In this document: positions 1-7,319 of the stretch, piece by piece
Numbering within the stretch: position 1 is the stretch's first letter
How the letters are laid out: each line of letters opens with the position of its first letter
Assembly: GCA_021790335.1 (NCBI GenBank)
Contig: JAJYEE010000022.1
Coordinates: 2,509-43,418 of the forward strand
Length of the DNA: 40,910 bases
Origin: Pseudomonadota bacterium
GTDB lineage: Bacteria; Pseudomonadota; Gammaproteobacteria; Acidiferrobacterales; UBA6901
Reading direction: 5' to 3'
Notes under the pieces: model-generated
The model's database searches: none
The model's input: only the letters and a program-made list of their open reading frames with translations
What the model was told of the DNA's origin: nothing
Made by a program: the position numbers and the translations under genes

Positions 1-256
1 GCGATTGCGTCTTGGGAAGGTCCTCGCTAACCCACAGCAACGGACCGGGTTAGATCCCCTTCAGGAACGCCGCGAGATAACTGGCGCCCCGTCCGCGACA
101 CCCATCAGGACGACGTAAGCAGACTATTCGCGATTGCGTCTTGGGAAGGTCCTCGCTAACCCACAGCAACGGACCGGGTTAGATCCCCTTCAGGAACGCC
201 GCGAGATAACTGGCGCCCCGTCCGCGACACCCATCAGGACGACGTAAGCAGACTAT
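1..256. repeat. 127-bp direct tandem repeat at the window edge
   Basis: Positions 1-127 and 130-256 are identical as far as I can read, separated by the two bases TC, giving a 129-bp period. Each unit carries an inverted repeat CTAACCC / GGGTTAG (27-33 and 47-53 in the first copy) with a 13-nt loop. Although 129 is a multiple of three, every one of the six frames meets a stop inside the unit, so this is not a protein repeat. More copies may lie outside the window, and a contig-edge assembly artefact cannot be excluded. The role is unknown. Confidence 0.85.
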
Positions 257-858: not shown

Positions 859-1674
859 TTATAGGGTTGCTCGCACGAGGCGCGGTGCACTCGGATCCGC
901 AATGCTATTGGCCGAGCGTATCGAAGGGCGCGGATCTTCGGCTGCGATCGGTTTTGGTGGTTCCATTTGCGATGCAGTCCACTTGGCACCAGCTGACGCC
1001 AGACGGGCCGAGATTTCCTCTCGCGCTGCGGCGGTTTGTTTCGTGAAGAAGTGAACTTCAAGACGTTGGCACAATCCCCAGCCGCGGGGCCCGGCTTTGT
1101 CCAGGAGCTTTGTATTGTGCCAAAGATAACCGGCTGTGGAGGCGAATCCTCCTGCGCCGCAGCTTTGCAGCAGGCCGCCCAATGCGTCGAGTTCCGCCAG
1201 CGCCTCAATGATCCCGTCGCCGAGCTTCAGGTAACGCGCTTCGGCGGCGCCAAATTCTTCCTGAAGCTGCGCAACTAGCGCTTGGTTCATCTGAACCTGC
1301 AGCGCCACGAGTTTCGCCTGGGCCTCGCTCCTGCGGTCAGCCAGGATCTTCTGCGATTCAACAGCTGCTGCGGCAAATTCGCGGGTTCCCTTGGACTGAA
1401 ACTCGCACTTTTCGATTTCTCGATCGATCTCCGAGGTGATCGGTATATCTCCCACGATGAACGCTTTGCCGCGTTCGTGTAGCTGCTGCTGCCTGAGCGC
1501 CGAAAGCTTCTCTTCAGCATGTTGCCAGCGCTGGATCGCGTCGCGCGCGTGGGGCTCGTCCAACGCGATATCATTCAGGACATCGCATTGTTTCGCGAGC
1601 TCGGCGGCCAGTTTCTCTATTCTGTCCATCGTCTTTGTTTGCATGGTCTTCTCCACATCAATGTTGAGTGTCAT
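859..1674 (-). CDS. Hypothetical helical coiled-coil protein of the element
   Basis: A 271-aa protein with no recognised family. Roughly residues 12-160 are rich in Ala, Glu, Gln, Lys and Arg and low in Pro and Gly, which suggests long helices or a coiled coil. The middle (about 160-200) is Gly-rich and hydrophobic, and the C-terminal 45 residues look disordered. Two starts compete. ATG 1674 overlaps the upstream stop as ATGA. ATG 1644 (261 aa) has the sequence GGAGAAG six bases before it, the better ribosome binding site. It is the last gene of the element operon before the hairpin at 810-835. A structural, accessory or immunity role is possible but unsupported. Confidence 0.6.
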   Translation of the reverse strand: MTLNIDVEKTMQTKTMDRIEKLAAELAKQCDVLNDIALDEPHARDAIQRWQHAEEKLSALRQQQLHERGKAFIVGDIPITSEIDREIEKCEFQSKGTREFAAAAVESQKILADRRSEAQAKLVALQVQMNQALVAQLQEEFGAAEARYLKLGDGIIEALAELDALGGLLQSCGAGGFASTAGYLWHNTKLLDKAGPRGWGLCQRLEVHFFTKQTAAAREEISARLASAGAKWTASQMEPPKPIAAEDPRPSIRSANSIADPSAPRLVRATL

Positions 1675-1946
1675 ATCTCGCCGCGGCGCTTGCGGCCTGC
1701 GTTGATGATTGCCGCGGCTGCCCCGCGCGGCCTGGTCGTCAGGATCTCGCCGCGGCGTTTCCTGCCCGCGGTGATGATTCGCTGGGCCGCCTGCCGGACC
1801 GTCGCTGTCCGCTGCCGTTGCGGTAGCGGCTCGGGTCCCAGTATGAGCCGGCTGAACAGCCCGGGGTGTTTCTGGTTTTCGATATCGGACCCCAAAATCA
1901 GCCGGCTGAACAGCCCGGGGTGTTTCTGGTTTTCGTCGTTTTGCAT
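1671..1946 (-). CDS. Small basic protein made of two internal repeats
   Basis: This 91-aa protein starts at ATG 1946 with GAGGAA seven bases upstream. The N-terminal half holds two 18-residue units sharing ENQKHPGLFSRLILG. The C-terminal half holds two copies of AGRKRRGEI 23 residues apart, giving a strongly basic tail. No family is recognised. It lies between the primase/helicase gene and the coiled-coil gene and overlaps the latter by ATGA. The basic repeats suggest nucleic-acid contact, but this is inference. The protein may instead simply reflect DNA-level repeats that happen to stay in frame. Confidence 0.45.
   Translation of the reverse strand: MQNDENQKHPGLFSRLILGSDIENQKHPGLFSRLILGPEPLPQRQRTATVRQAAQRIITAGRKRRGEILTTRPRGAAAAIINAGRKRRGEI
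1828..1935. repeat. 54-bp in-frame tandem repeat
   Basis: A perfect 36-bp core occurs at 1846-1881 and 1900-1935, with looser similarity filling the 54-bp period. On the minus strand it encodes the two 18-residue units of the small repeat protein. A second pair of related sequences with a 69-bp period (from about 1675 and 1744) lies in the same gene. Confidence 0.85.
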
Positions 1947-2040: not shown

Positions 2041-2157
2041 GCTGCGGGGTCTGCGGGGTTTTGCGGGTTCACTTTTGGTCCCTATATATTTTTTTGCTTT
2101 TGCTAAATCTCACGCGTAAGGAGAAACTGAACCCGCAGTACCCGCAGACCCCGCAAC
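2041..2157. other. Iteron-like inverted repeats, candidate element origin
   Basis: At 2041-2070 three roughly 10-bp units in a row share TGCGGG(G)T. At 2129-2157, inside the 3' end of the primase gene, a near-copy of this block lies in the opposite orientation. The 58 bp between them include the AT-rich stretch TATATATTTTTTTGC, unusual in this DNA. P4-type primase-helicases bind short iterons beside an AT-rich region at their own origin, so this site next to the replication gene is a candidate origin. Alternatives are a terminator-like structure or low-complexity coding sequence (the primase ends in Gly/Ala/Thr/Ser repeats). Confidence 0.35.
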
Positions 2158-4764
2158 TTCGACCAGCCGCCAGCGGGCGACCTTCGAGTGGCTATCGATT
2201 CCGCAGGCCTCAAGCCGTCGGCCATCGATCACCCGGCCGCGATGCCGCCGCAGCCAGTTTCCAAAGCGTTTGGCGGTGATTTTCTCGCCACAGGCGGAGA
2301 GCATTGCCTCGTGGAGTTCGTTGTCCGAGCCGGCGTTCTGTGCCTCCTGCGCCATCGTTCCGGCGGTGACCGGATTCTCGCTATGAAGGCGAAACCAGGC
2401 GGCGAAGAGCTGGCGCTGAGTCGTGATGTCGGGATCTTCGCCGCGCACATCTTCAGCCCCAAGGAGGGGATCGGGGAGGCCGAGCCACACGAGAGGGCGG
2501 CGACACCAGGCATCCCAGCGTTCAAAGCTGCCGAAAGGCGTGGTCCCGACGTCGGGTGTGTCAGCGACGAGGTAGGCGCGGGTGATCGTCAGCGCGGCGC
2601 GGATAAGCTCGCCTCGATGCTTCGACACGTATTGCAGCACGTCACGGTTGAAGCGCCGCTGCTCTGGTCGTTCGACCTTGGCATCGAGGCGGATCAGCAG
2701 GACGCGGCGTTTCAAGTCGCCGCGCATGTCCAGCGCGTTGCCGGTGGCGAAGAAACTGCAGTTTGTCTGGATATTGAGCTTTGCCGAGGCTCCTAACGGC
2801 CGGATGCTCGCGATGGGCTGTGTAAGAATCTGGTTGAGGAAATCGCCGTAGAGCGGGCGCTCGATGTTGTCGAGGTTAATCAGCGAGTCGCCGGCGAGCA
2901 GTGCCGATGCCAACCGCTTTTCGCTCTCCGTTTGATCGTCGCCCAGGCTCAGTACGGGTGCGCGTCGGCCGGTGGCGATGACAGCCGAGACGTCCACGAG
3001 CAGCGTCTTGCCGGTGCCGGCCGTCGGCGCCGTGATGCTGACCATCGGTGCCGCAGGAAGCGACCGGCGAAACAGCGAGGTCAAGATCCCGGCGATGGCG
3101 GCGGCTCGGTCCGATGCATCGACAAAAGGGAAATCGCGCAGTGCGTCCCAGATCTCATCCAGGGCGTACAACCCTTCTTCCCGGTTCGGCTGCGCATGCG
3201 GCGCGCTGTAGTCTTTCGGCAGCTCGCCGGCGAGGTAGATGCCGCTTCCGGCGTCGTAACCGGGAGCATCGAGCACAGTGCCGTCGGCGCGCAGCGTCGG
3301 CGCCTGGACGATGCCGCGCAGTTGGCGAATGTGCTTCCAACCCCCGTTGCGCGCGATAAAGCTATCTGCGATGGGGCGGGGGACATCGGCGGGACGCCAT
3401 TCGTCCGTGCGCGCATTGAATTTCTGCCATTTGGCGGCGAGGGCCAGGCGATCAACCAGGTGCGCTGGCACCACAGTTTGCATCGTGATTGCGCCGGCCG
3501 GCCGATGTATATCGTGCTCGTGTCCGTCCGATTCGATCGCCATGACACGCACCAGGCGACCGTCTTGTGCAAAGACCGTCGGATCCCATGCGCCGAGCGC
3601 GGCATCCGCCTGGTCGAGGATGTGCGGCAGCTCGCCATTCTTGATCTTGATGATCGGGCGATCATCGTCTTGCGCGTCACTCCCGGACCCGGATGCATTT
3701 CGTTTCTTGCGCTTGGTGGTGGGCAGGTTCACGACCTTGGCCTTCGTCATGGATTTTTCTTCTTGTGCGGTGTTGGATACCGTTTTGTCCCAGCCCAGTT
3801 CCTGCAGCTTCTTTTGCACCTGACCACGGACTATCTGCAGGCCTTCGGCCTGGTGCAGATCGTTGAAGTCGGTAAGCTTGCGATCTCCACGATCGGCGAA
3901 AACAGGTGCGAGCCAAGCCCCGCGAACCCCATCAGCGGCGACTGTGGCTGCGGAAATTCCCGGATTACCGGACGTCCGGAAATCGTCGTCAGCGCAGAAG
4001 AGGAGCTGCGCCGCGGAATGGGCGCGCTTGAGTACGTGGCCGGCGGGGGCAAGATTGCCCGCATCGAAGGCGATCGCGACGGGCAACCTGGTGGCTTCAT
4101 GCAGTGAAGCGGCAGTTGCGTAGCCCTCGGCCATGAGGATGATCCCGTTCGGTTCGCCCAGGAGAAAGAACCGCCCGCGTTTGGCGAGGCCTGCCGGCCA
4201 GTAATCTTTGTCGCGTCCCTTGCGGCGCGTCACTTCCGAATCGCCGTAGATCACCTGTAGCCCATGGATGGTGCCGTGCTCATCGGACATAGGGATCAAA
4301 AGATTGCCGCGCTCGGTAAACCGAACACCGAAGGCCTGCACGCCCTTGCGTACGAGATATGCGCAGGAGCCGACCGGACTGGATCGCTCCCACAAGGTAC
4401 GCGCCCTGAGTGCCGCGCGTTCGGCCACGTGGATCCGTTTTGCCTCGGCGCGCCGGCGATCGTCAGCCAGCTGGGCGCGGACCGCTGCGTGTTCCTCAAG
4501 CGAGACGCCGGCGCCGTCGAGCGAAATCTTGTGGTTGACCCGATCGCCGGTGCGCGGATCGTGCTGGCGCCAGTCGCCATAAGCGCCGACCAACAAATGC
4601 CGGCGGCCAACAGTGAGTTCGTGCAGGATGTACCAACCTGTCTTGTCGCGCCCGCGATCCTCGTGGGTGCGCACCCGCATAATGCGTCCGAGCTCCAGGG
4701 CTTCGACCTCGAGGCCTGCGGCACACAGTTGGCGCAAGACGTCATCGTAATTCTCGACAGTCAT
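2110..4764 (-). CDS. Toprim DNA primase fused to D5-like helicase (P4-alpha-like)
   Basis: This 884-aa replication protein of the element probably primes DNA synthesis and unwinds DNA at the element origin. A Toprim domain spans about residues 205-325, with MAEGYATAAS (Glu 213), the acidic FCADDD (257-261) and TDFNDLH (298-304). A linker at about 330-370 is Ser/Lys/Arg-rich. The C-terminal ATPase shows Walker A APTAGTGKT (579-587), a Walker B-like LINLDNIE (628-635) and sensor FFATGN (671-676), as in D5-type superfamily-3-like helicases. No zinc-binding primase motif was seen. The start is ATG 4764. An internal ATG at 3750 (Met 339) follows an A/G-rich stretch and opens the helicase half, so two products are possible. 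The gene lies 51 bp downstream of the AlpA gene. Confidence 0.9.
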   Translation of the reverse strand: MTVENYDDVLRQLCAAGLEVEALELGRIMRVRTHEDRGRDKTGWYILHELTVGRRHLLVGAYGDWRQHDPRTGDRVNHKISLDGAGVSLEEHAAVRAQLADDRRRAEAKRIHVAERAALRARTLWERSSPVGSCAYLVRKGVQAFGVRFTERGNLLIPMSDEHGTIHGLQVIYGDSEVTRRKGRDKDYWPAGLAKRGRFFLLGEPNGIILMAEGYATAASLHEATRLPVAIAFDAGNLAPAGHVLKRAHSAAQLLFCADDDFRTSGNPGISAATVAADGVRGAWLAPVFADRGDRKLTDFNDLHQAEGLQIVRGQVQKKLQELGWDKTVSNTAQEEKSMTKAKVVNLPTTKRKKRNASGSGSDAQDDDRPIIKIKNGELPHILDQADAALGAWDPTVFAQDGRLVRVMAIESDGHEHDIHRPAGAITMQTVVPAHLVDRLALAAKWQKFNARTDEWRPADVPRPIADSFIARNGGWKHIRQLRGIVQAPTLRADGTVLDAPGYDAGSGIYLAGELPKDYSAPHAQPNREEGLYALDEIWDALRDFPFVDASDRAAAIAGILTSLFRRSLPAAPMVSITAPTAGTGKTLLVDVSAVIATGRRAPVLSLGDDQTESEKRLASALLAGDSLINLDNIERPLYGDFLNQILTQPIASIRPLGASAKLNIQTNCSFFATGNALDMRGDLKRRVLLIRLDAKVERPEQRRFNRDVLQYVSKHRGELIRAALTITRAYLVADTPDVGTTPFGSFERWDAWCRRPLVWLGLPDPLLGAEDVRGEDPDITTQRQLFAAWFRLHSENPVTAGTMAQEAQNAGSDNELHEAMLSACGEKITAKRFGNWLRRHRGRVIDGRRLEACGIDSHSKVARWRLVEVAGSAGTAGSVSPYA

Positions 4765-4815: not shown

Positions 4816-5058
4816 TCAGGCGACCTTCCGGCGCATAGCTTCGAGTTTTTTCACGAGACCACGGATTTCTTCATCGTTTTTGCCAGCGATCCGAGCATCG
4901 AGAACTGCTGCAATTTCCGATTCCGGCCACGCTACGGCACGAGGACCGAGCTTGACCGGTCGAGGAAGAAGACCTTCGCGGATTTGAAGATAAATCGTCG
5001 ATCTCCGGAGTCCGGATGCAGATTGGACAGCAGGGAGACGAAGCAAAGTGGTAGCCAT
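4816..5058 (-). CDS. AlpA-family transcriptional regulator
   Basis: An 80-aa protein of the AlpA/excisionase type, a winged-helix DNA-binding fold common in P4-like satellites. In that family it activates integrase or element genes, or helps excision. The LPAVQSASGLRRSTIYLQIREGLLPRPVKLGPRAVAW segment (split here only by its helix-turn-helix, about residues 8-45) matches the family pattern: a first helix, the recognition helix containing RSTIY, then the wing with R-x-V-x-W. A charged helix makes up the C-terminus. AAGGAAA lies just upstream of ATG 5058. It sits between the integrase pair and the primase, the usual place for a switch regulator. Confidence 0.85.
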   Translation of the reverse strand: MATTLLRLPAVQSASGLRRSTIYLQIREGLLPRPVKLGPRAVAWPESEIAAVLDARIAGKNDEEIRGLVKKLEAMRRKVA

Positions 5059-5102
5059 GTATTTCCTTGGCGCGCTCCGGCGCGCATCGAATCAACATGA
5101 CC

Positions 5103-5161
5103 GACACTAAACAAGCAAAGGTACAAAATCACGGACACGAAGTATTGGGGGTTAGTGTCCG
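5103..5161. promoter_or_regulatory. Inverted repeats upstream of the AlpA gene
   Basis: Between the unknown gene ending at 5172 and the AlpA start at 5058 lie GACACTAA (5103-5110) and its inverse TTAGTGTC (5152-5159). A third related arm CGGACAC (5132-5138) pairs with GTGTCCG (5155-5161). The repeated core GGACAC/GACAC in both orientations looks like operator half-sites, perhaps for AlpA itself or another element regulator. A minus-strand promoter with TTGCTT and TTGATT 17 bp apart is possible but weak. Confidence 0.4.
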
Positions 5162-5171
5162 CTGAGGTGAG

Positions 5172-5867
5172 CTATTTTACTTTCCTCTGCCCGCGAACCG
5201 TGCGTGAAGTGCGAGGGCGCGCAGATGGATCGTGTGTCTCGTTGTGCACAGTGGAAGATGGAGCGCGCTGGCTCAATTGCTCACCTTTATTGAAAAGGCG
5301 CGTCACTTCACGTTTGATGCTTTCGGTGTCGCTTAAATTGCATTTGTGTTGCCGTTCCTGCGCCTCGAGCGCCTCACCAAGCCACTTTTCGTCGTTCATG
5401 CTATAGGCCAGCGAGGGCAATCCTGCCTTGATGACGAGAGCAATCCGCTTTTTTGCATTCTTGATCGAGAGGTTGTGTTCCTCACTGATAAGCGTTGTGT
5501 AGAAATAGACCTCGAGCGCCCTATCGTGCCTCATCTTTGTCTTGGGCCGTTTATTCGGGGGCTGTACATTGAAGGCAGCGCTGAGATCTTTGTGATTTTC
5601 GGTAAACTCCTGCATGCACTGCACGAGATAATGAGCAAGCGCCGGGGAATGTGACAGATCCTGGAGGTTGCGCGAAATTTGCCCGACCGCTCGACGGAGA
5701 AGTTTTTCCGCTGCCCATGTAGCACCAGATTTGGCCTGCTCGATCAGATGGACAATCTGAGGCTCGGTTCGCTTCACATATTCCTTGCCCCGCTTACCGT
5801 CTATAACCGTGAAGCCATGGCTCTCCAGCAGCTCAATGGCCTCGCACAGCTTCTTGTCGAAGATCAT
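5172..5867 (-). CDS. Unknown protein translationally coupled to the integrase
   Basis: A 231-aa protein with no recognised family. The start is ATG 5867, which overlaps the integrase stop as ATGA; a longer frame to 5933 would run back into the integrase gene. The protein looks soluble and mostly helical, with a segment rich in Lys, Glu and Leu at about 50-100, a middle part containing ALEVYFYTTLISEEHNL, and a basic, Ser/Thr/Arg-rich disordered tail in the last 40 residues. No membrane segments or Cys clusters were seen. Its DNA is visibly less GC-rich than that of the integrase, suggesting a different origin. Coupling to the integrase suggests a role in integration, excision or element maintenance, but there is no direct evidence. 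Confidence 0.65.
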   Translation of the reverse strand: MIFDKKLCEAIELLESHGFTVIDGKRGKEYVKRTEPQIVHLIEQAKSGATWAAEKLLRRAVGQISRNLQDLSHSPALAHYLVQCMQEFTENHKDLSAAFNVQPPNKRPKTKMRHDRALEVYFYTTLISEEHNLSIKNAKKRIALVIKAGLPSLAYSMNDEKWLGEALEAQERQHKCNLSDTESIKREVTRLFNKGEQLSQRAPSSTVHNETHDPSARPRTSRTVRGQRKVK

Positions 5868-7081
5868 GCTCGCGCCATGAGTAGTGGGATCACGTCGGCG
5901 CCAGCTTTCAGCTTGTCCAGGTAATCGGCCCACTGCTGCATCATCTTCTGCCGCTCGAGAAGATGTGCCGTACGGTTGTAAGCGCGGCCATTCGGATCTT
6001 TCACGGCATGGGCCAACTGGTGCTCAATGAAGTCAGGACGTACGCCCAGCACTTCATCCAGGATTGTGCGGGCTGCCGCCCGGAAGCCGTGGCCGGTCAT
6101 TTCTTCTTTACGGATTCCCATGCGCCGCATGGCCGCAAGGATGGCGTTGTCGGACATGGGGCGCTCGACACTCCGTGCCCCGGGAAAGACAAAGCGCCGT
6201 CGTCCCGTGAGGGGGCGCAGTTCGCGCAGGATCGCCACGGCTTGTCGGGCAAGCGGCACGATATGCGGGGTGTTGGTTTTCGTTACCGTGTAACGCCACT
6301 CGGCCTTGTCCAAGTCGATATCGGACCATTCCGCCTTGCGGAGCTCGCCCGGCCGCACGAAGACCAGCGGGGCCAGACGCAAGGCGCAGGAAACGGTGAA
6401 AGTACCCTGATAGCCGTCTATCGCCCGCAGAATGTCCGCCAACCGAGCGGGGTCGGTGACTGCCGCGAAGTGTTCGCCTTTCACTGGCGGTAGCGCACCG
6501 CGTAGATCGCCGGAAGGGTCTCTCCCTGCTCGGCCGGTGGCGACGGCATAGCGGAACACCTGCCCGCAGTTGGCCAGGGCGCGATGCGCGGTTTCCAGTG
6601 CGCCCCGGTTTTCGATGCGCCGCACCACGGCCAGCAATTCCGGTGCGGTCACTTCGGCAACGGGCTTGCCGCCGATCCATGGGAACAGGTCACGATCGAA
6701 GCGCCGCAAGATGCGCTCAGCATGATTCGCCGTCCACGTCGGGGCATACTTGGCGATCCATTCCCGCGCCACCACTTCAAAGCTATTCGCTGCCCGGTCC
6801 TGTTTCACCGCCTTTTGCGCCTTGCGGTTCTCGCCCGGGTCGATTCCGTCGGCCAGCAGCTTGCGGGCTTCGTCCCGATGCTGGCGGGCGTCCTTCAATC
6901 CGACGGCGGGATAGACGCCCAGGGATAGCCGTTTCTCCTTGCCGGCAAAGCGATACTTGAGCCGCCACCACTTCCCGCCAGTGGGGGAGACCTCCAAGTA
7001 CAGGCCTCCGCTGTCAAACAGCCTGGCGGTCTTCCCGTGTGGTTTGGCGTGGCGAATCACGGTATCTGTCAAGGTCGTCAT
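5864..7081 (-). CDS. P4-type tyrosine recombinase (integrase)
   Basis: A 405-aa site-specific recombinase that should integrate and excise the element at a tRNA-linked site. The N-terminal DUF4102-type arm-binding domain (about 1-90) contains LYLEVSPTGGKWWRLKYRF. A SAM-like core-binding domain follows at about 100-185. The catalytic domain shows Arg 243 (FVRPGELR), His 331 and Arg 334 (HGFR), His 354/358, and Tyr 368 (RAYNRT). The set is complete, so the enzyme is probably active. ATG 7081 is chosen because it opens with the family-typical MTTLTDTVIRHAKP and has GAGGAG upstream; the frame extends to 7150 without family support. The gene lies 108 bp below the tRNA terminator and overlaps the next gene by ATGA. 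Confidence 0.95.
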   Translation of the reverse strand: MTTLTDTVIRHAKPHGKTARLFDSGGLYLEVSPTGGKWWRLKYRFAGKEKRLSLGVYPAVGLKDARQHRDEARKLLADGIDPGENRKAQKAVKQDRAANSFEVVAREWIAKYAPTWTANHAERILRRFDRDLFPWIGGKPVAEVTAPELLAVVRRIENRGALETAHRALANCGQVFRYAVATGRAGRDPSGDLRGALPPVKGEHFAAVTDPARLADILRAIDGYQGTFTVSCALRLAPLVFVRPGELRKAEWSDIDLDKAEWRYTVTKTNTPHIVPLARQAVAILRELRPLTGRRRFVFPGARSVERPMSDNAILAAMRRMGIRKEEMTGHGFRAAARTILDEVLGVRPDFIEHQLAHAVKDPNGRAYNRTAHLLERQKMMQQWADYLDKLKAGADVIPLLMARA

Positions 7082-7167
7082 TTGGGGGCAACTCCTCGGG
7101 ATGGTATGGAAGTTGCCCCCAATGTTGCCCCCAAGGATAGCGGAAGTCAACGGACACTGTTGCCCCC
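7082..7167 (-). promoter_or_regulatory. TTGCCCCC repeats and hairpin at the integrase start
   Basis: On the plus strand TTGCCCCCAA occurs at 7113-7122 and 7125-7134, with a shorter TTGCCCCC at 7160-7167. The exact inverse TTGGGGGCAA lies at 7082-7091, directly before the integrase ATG. In a transcript from upstream, 7113-7122 could pair with 7082-7091 in a perfect 10-bp stem whose 21-nt loop contains the GAGGAG ribosome binding site. The more upstream copies could pair in its place. As DNA they could be integrase arm sites or operators. Confidence 0.5.
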
Positions 7168-7245: not shown

Positions 7246-7319
7246 TGGAGGCTGGGGTCGGAATCGAACCGGCGTCCACGGCTTTGCAGGCCGCTGCATA
7301 ACCACTCTGCCACCCAGCC
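7246..7319 (-). tRNA. tRNA-Cys (GCA)
   Basis: The reverse complement folds as a cloverleaf. The acceptor is GGCTGGG/CCCAGCC with discriminator T and an encoded CCA at 7246-7248. The D arm contains GCAGAGTGGTTATGCA, the anticodon loop contains GCA flanked by CCT and AAAG, and the T arm contains GGTTCGATTCC. It is 74 nt long. It follows tRNA-Gly in one operon, as cysT follows glyW in E. coli. Confidence 0.97.

Follow-up and report, generated by a model that had tools for sequence, protein, structure and literature searches.

PICMIs are small phage satellites of marine Vibrionaceae that carry int, alpA, and prim genes (PMC10803314). Among their 35 subfamilies, 21 also carry iolg (integrase-overlapping gene), a gene of unknown function defined by its overlap with int (1, 4, or 13 nt, commonly as ATGA) and by its position between int and alpA (PMC10803314). 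Together, IOLGs and genes contiguous with int comprise 13 families of unknown function (PMC10803314).

The role of iolg has been addressed in one satellite, PICMI115, where deletion of the gene abolished both excision and transfer; the iolg mutant was complemented with int and iolg together (PMC10803314). In an int deletion mutant of the same element, int supplied in trans without iolg restored excision (PMC10803314); this result is ambiguous, because the int-deletion strain may still carry iolg. In an alpA mutant, alpA in trans was enough to induce excision (PMC10803314). That mutant keeps iolg, and the experiment thus does not exclude a regulator role. How AlpA, the integrase, and IOLG jointly catalyse excision is left open by the same paper (PMC10803314), and our literature search found no other paper that uses the term iolg in this sense.

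An 8.1-kb element at tRNA-Cys

Here, we describe a gene in the iolg position outside Vibrionaceae. The window, that is, the whole stretch of DNA that was analysed (40,910 nucleotides), begins at position 2509 of contig C7 and covers the right-hand part of an integrated element, the left end of which lies outside. Its features, in window coordinates unless stated otherwise, are as follows.

Contig C7, 1623-1636: second copy of the att core TGGAGGCTGGGGTC, just under 0.9 kb to the left of window position 1
859-1674, minus strand: 271-aa open reading frame, no family, with a weak partial JetC match at most
1671-1946, minus strand: small open reading frame with an internal repeat, no family
2110-4764, minus strand: primase/helicase, 884 aa, Toprim in the N-terminal half (Toprim_3 and PHROG DNA primase)
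4816-5058, minus strand: alpA, AlpA/Vis-type excisionase-regulator, 80 aa (Pfam Phage_AlpA, E 5.6e-15; PHROG excisionase and transcriptional regulator)
5059-5171: gap of 113 bp ahead of alpA, candidate operator
5132-5141 and 5152-5161: 10-bp inverted repeat CGGACACGAA/TTAGTGTCCG in the alpA gap
5172-5867, minus strand: orf231, orphan protein in the iolg position, 231 aa, pI 9.6, basic tail
5864-7081, minus strand: int, intact P4-type tyrosine integrase, 405 aa (Arm-DNA-bind_3, Phage_int_M, Phage_integrase)
7084-7167: integrase arm-type sites TTGCCCCC, at 7084-7091 (minus) and at 7113-7120, 7125-7132, and 7160-7167 (plus)
7246-7319, minus strand: tRNA-Cys, the integration target
7246-7259: att core TGGAGGCTGGGGTC, 14 bp, at the 3' end of tRNA-Cys

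The site is empty in a congener (G054), where the left flank joins the tRNA-Cys side directly and the two have exactly those 14 bases in common. The 14-bp att repeats and this empty site thus fix both ends of the element and give it a size of about 8.1 kb. Arm-type sites TTGCCCCC are present at both ends, with seven copies in 12 kb against 0.59 expected. Inward from int, the gene order is int, orf231, alpA, and primase/helicase, followed by a few small open reading frames without a family. The integrase was initially annotated as intact, and its arm-binding, central, and catalytic domains are all present. No packaging, capsid, or terminase genes were recognised in the element.

Two repeats were observed in the left part of the element. 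Within the small open reading frame at 1671-1946, a 51-nt unit recurs at 54-nt spacing (1831-1935) and encodes the repeated peptide SRLILG..ENQKHPGLF. A 130-nt unit is present three times (window 1-256; contig C7, 2369-2764); immediately to the left of the window, a run of N separates its first and second copies. This may be an artefact of assembly where scaffolds were joined, or else a repeat of the element itself that might be origin-like.

The element resembles PICMIs in its small size, in its order of int, slot gene, alpA, and primase (we call the interval between int and alpA the slot), and in the absence of recognised capsid or terminase genes. As in PICMIs, int and alpA are co-localised. 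There are also clear differences. PICMIs insert at fis, whereas this element lies at tRNA-Cys, and the PICMI primase model is DUF3987 or DUF5906, whereas Toprim_3 is the sole match of the primase here, at E up to 1. Furthermore, PICMIs are helper-dependent satellites, whereas no helper phage is known for this element. Insertion outside fis and a primase without DUF3987 or DUF5906 mean that the element is not a PICMI by the published model (PMC10803314).

Other satellites are alike in part. Gram-negative PICIs of the EcCICFT073 type (PMC6092414) have in common with the element an integrase, an alpA activator, and a primase-type replication gene; their interference and terminase-type packaging genes are unrecognised here. 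P4-like satellites share a P4-type integrase at a tRNA gene, AlpA (Vis), and a primase-helicase. These satellites carry psu, sid, and delta, and no psu-, sid-, or delta-like genes were recognised in this element. Their defence hotspot between int and psu also differs from the int-to-alpA slot seen here.

The closest match to orf231 is positional. It overlaps int and lies between int and alpA, as in the definition of iolg, and it is like the iolg of PICMI115 in its ATGA overlap, its place as a single gene, and its lack of a known family. The two host elements are alike in their int-alpA-primase layout, and packaging genes are absent from both. This likeness is one of position and layout; the collections searched held no detectable sequence relative of orf231, and the integration sites differ. 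The shared layout and overlap make orf231 a gene of the iolg kind by position, and its putative function, too, is drawn from position. It had initially been put forward as the best candidate for something undescribed, which holds for the protein sequence and not for the position and type of the gene, published in 2024 (PMC10803314): orf231 is a new member, by sequence, of a kind of gene already described.

orf231 is a real open reading frame with an orphan sequence

The frame of orf231 is open over all 231 aa on the minus strand, from 5867 to 5172, and its ATG shares the four bases ATGA with the TGA of int. This overlap, the length of the protein, and the lower GC content relative to its neighbour (52.7% against 63.3% for int) confirm the initial annotation. 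Dinucleotide shuffles of the region gave an open reading frame of this length in only 3 of 2000 cases, the longest open reading frame on the opposite strand is 102 aa, and GC by codon position (57/39/62%) is coding-like. An in-frame GTG upstream would give 253 aa; the overlap ATG is the more natural choice of start codon. Ahead of this ATG, no strong Shine-Dalgarno sequence was seen, a context that would fit re-initiation after int.

We find no convincing family match for orf231 in Pfam, PHROGs, NCBIfam, PADLOC, or PDB sequences, as expected from the initial annotation. More specifically, neither Xis or AlpA homology nor a helix-turn-helix (HTH) family was matched in Pfam, PHROGs, or NCBIfam, and no PADLOC model for anti-phage defence matched. 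The initial annotation had judged the protein too large for a normal excisionase; it is not a classical excisionase, a role that belongs to the adjoining AlpA. No credible relative was found in plasmids and phages (tblastn), in viral contigs (queried with the full length and two halves), or in contigs of 84,980 species and about 800 whole genomes of the order, class, and phylum; all of these searches were empty save for weak single matches. The best of them (E 1.9e-4, in G473) was to a protein that by eye resembles a PhaR-type regulator, and was judged to be chance. AF2 prediction from the single sequence gave a pLDDT of 42, and the model was left out of the fold search; the prediction is poor because relatives are lacking.

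Orphan status in every collection searched, GC below that of the neighbours, and low AF2 confidence could together mean that orf231 does not work as a gene and is a frame that arose by chance, or has decayed, within a patch of low GC. The shuffles, the codon-position GC, the exact ATGA overlap, and a place and size like those of slot genes elsewhere all argue the other way, and we find this explanation scarcely credible. orf231 is a real open reading frame.

The slot between int and alpA is coding in many proteobacteria

As orf231 gave no homologues whose neighbours could be surveyed, we surveyed the slot instead. Loci around related integrases were drawn from viral contigs, from whole genomes within the class, and from contigs of genomes in many phyla; the sampling tracks integrase similarity and should not be read as an unbiased census. 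A co-oriented alpA lies within 3 kb of int at 62 of 132 usable loci, and at 45 of these 62 it is immediately preceded by an open reading frame of 110 aa or more. The longest slot frame averages 197 aa in the sense direction, compared with 124 aa in antisense and 86 aa in shuffled sequence. The slot is therefore coding, and it is general beyond Vibrio: the integrases that it follows come from many proteobacteria and from some further phyla. The first slot gene often begins no more than 15 bp from the int stop; in five cases, orf231 included, the two genes overlap by 4 bases. In most loci, the last slot gene ends 54-157 bp before alpA.

Slot genes turn over rapidly. The 45 slot proteins are mostly unrelated: clustering by full-length match gives 42 groups, and clustering by local matches of any kind gives 38. 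Integrases with 70-79% identity to that of the element are followed by unrelated slot genes or by none, and the claim that the gene is "obligately" coupled to its integrase is thus not supported. At three loci (L117, L118, and L103), alpA comes soon after int and the slot gene is absent, which shows that the slot function is not universal. Usually the slot holds one gene; some slots hold several. By eye, the genes in some slots resemble a toxin-antitoxin pair (L067 and L069), Fic-type (L170), RadC-like (L090 and L162), and restriction-endonuclease-like genes (L189), which suggests that the int-alpA interval may take ordinary cargo too.

Such turnover, the different slot genes behind integrases up to 79% identical, and the slots with several genes are what would be expected if the slot were a cargo hotspot, with orf231 as swappable cargo (e.g., for anti-phage or superinfection immunity) that rides the int transcript and has no part in excision. 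This is the main rival to an excision role, and on balance we think it unlikely. orf231 is without a PADLOC match, PICMI defence genes sit between prim and fis and not between int and alpA (PMC10803314), and the tested iolg, that of PICMI115, was required for excision (PMC10803314). Furthermore, a slot with mostly one gene, little variation in its distance from alpA, and a C-terminal domain that recurs looks like the seat of a backbone function.

Other slot proteins share C-terminal domains

Matches between slot proteins are often limited to the C-terminus. Across slot proteins, basicity is higher in the final 75 residues than in the remainder (p = 1.3e-5). A first C-terminal domain of about 70 residues is common to slot proteins of L005, L009, L172, and L195-L200. 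The A4/A5 C-terminal domain has the pattern DPKQ-x-E-K ... SKAAFARDM ... VIE-x-WCR. In a second scan, the first domain was present at 12 viral loci, with alpA within 150 bp downstream in 8 of them; most of the N-terminal regions ahead of it are unrelated or only weakly similar. Three helices are predicted, with a pLDDT of about 90 in the core. The domain is absent from Pfam and PHROGs, and Foldseek against the PDB gave nothing at E below 1. In a comparison limited to 11 solved chains, the best match was a homeodomain (Z 5.2, weak), a likeness that may be merely that of a common three-helix arrangement.

The same domain also occurs away from int and alpA, in L209 (3431-4216) and L210 (3428-4216). 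In L209, its gene directly follows a phage S24-type repressor gene, and the neighbour in L210 is similar; the slot is thus not the only setting of the domain. A second C-terminal domain (SANxAA ... LSESNAQRTIAEWFRKS) is common to slot proteins of L024, L116, and L132, which have unrelated N-termini. It is rare: viral contigs yielded no additional relative, and 274 genomes a single partial match.

By sequence and profile comparison, orf231 had no link to any other slot protein, with scores like those of shuffles, and hhalign against the A4/A5 C-terminal domain gave a probability of 0.09%, no better than shuffles. It also joined no group in iterated HMM searches of slot proteins. These searches included shuffled decoys, which set the noise level and sometimes entered profiles, and weak links (L129 and L080) were therefore dropped. 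By eye, residues 113-195 of orf231 can be fitted to the three-helix pattern, but no score supports the fit. Given the missing sequence and profile links and the pLDDT of 42, we claim no membership of a domain family for orf231.

The gap ahead of alpA

The 113-bp gap and its inverted repeat are consistent with alpA having its own promoter. CGGACAC motifs of the gap (5132-5161) recur near the att end, at 7151-7157. Their count in 12 kb is only modestly above chance (5 of 200 shuffles have at least as many), and CGGACAC is a possible AlpA site.

Since orf231 is basic and adjoins this gap, and since sibling slot proteins have a predicted three-helix, HTH-like domain just upstream of alpA, the protein could be a transcriptional regulator of the int-alpA region that acts at the alpA promoter and not in the recombination complex. 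We regard this as improbable: orf231 has no HTH family match, and alpA in trans induces excision in PICMI115, but in a strain that retains iolg (PMC10803314).

A putative role in excision

We lean toward orf231 being an iolg-type integrase-overlapping gene of a PICMI-like element of 8.1 kb, with a probable part in excision. Counted in its favour are the defined element ends, the gene order and overlap of PICMI115, the slot survey, the three-helix siblings, and the basic C-termini. Counted against it are the missing link between orf231 and other slot proteins, its pLDDT of 42, the ambiguous int-in-trans result in PICMI115, and the elements without a slot gene. The initial annotation had offered a directionality or immunity factor, or cargo; of these, a directionality-type function fits the iolg of PICMI115, the sole tested case (PMC10803314).

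In the mechanism that we propose, orf231 would be made together with int through translational coupling at the ATGA that the two genes share. As a small basic protein, it would join the excision complex with Int and AlpA, perhaps by binding to DNA or to Int at the att ends. According to the literature, alpA, behind its own promoter gap of ~110 bp, would be the switch. The need for orf231 in excision is carried over, by position, from PICMI115.

Most likely, orf231 is an excision partner that is swapped quickly, and it does not represent a new type of system. More tentatively, the slot could in many integrative elements hold one functional class of modular recombination partner, in which a small DNA-binding C-terminal domain of several interchangeable types is joined to a freely swapped N-terminal region that specialises excision to the element or its helper. 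orf231 would then be a highly diverged member.

With these findings, the iolg slot is no longer confined to Vibrionaceae: it accompanies integrases across many proteobacteria and in some further phyla. The wider interest, which is less certain, lies in the modular slot proteins, whose shared and unnamed three-helix domain is a concrete candidate for binding att DNA or Int. If slot proteins do act in excision, dozens of unrelated proteins would be serving a function that looks essential, an unusual situation.
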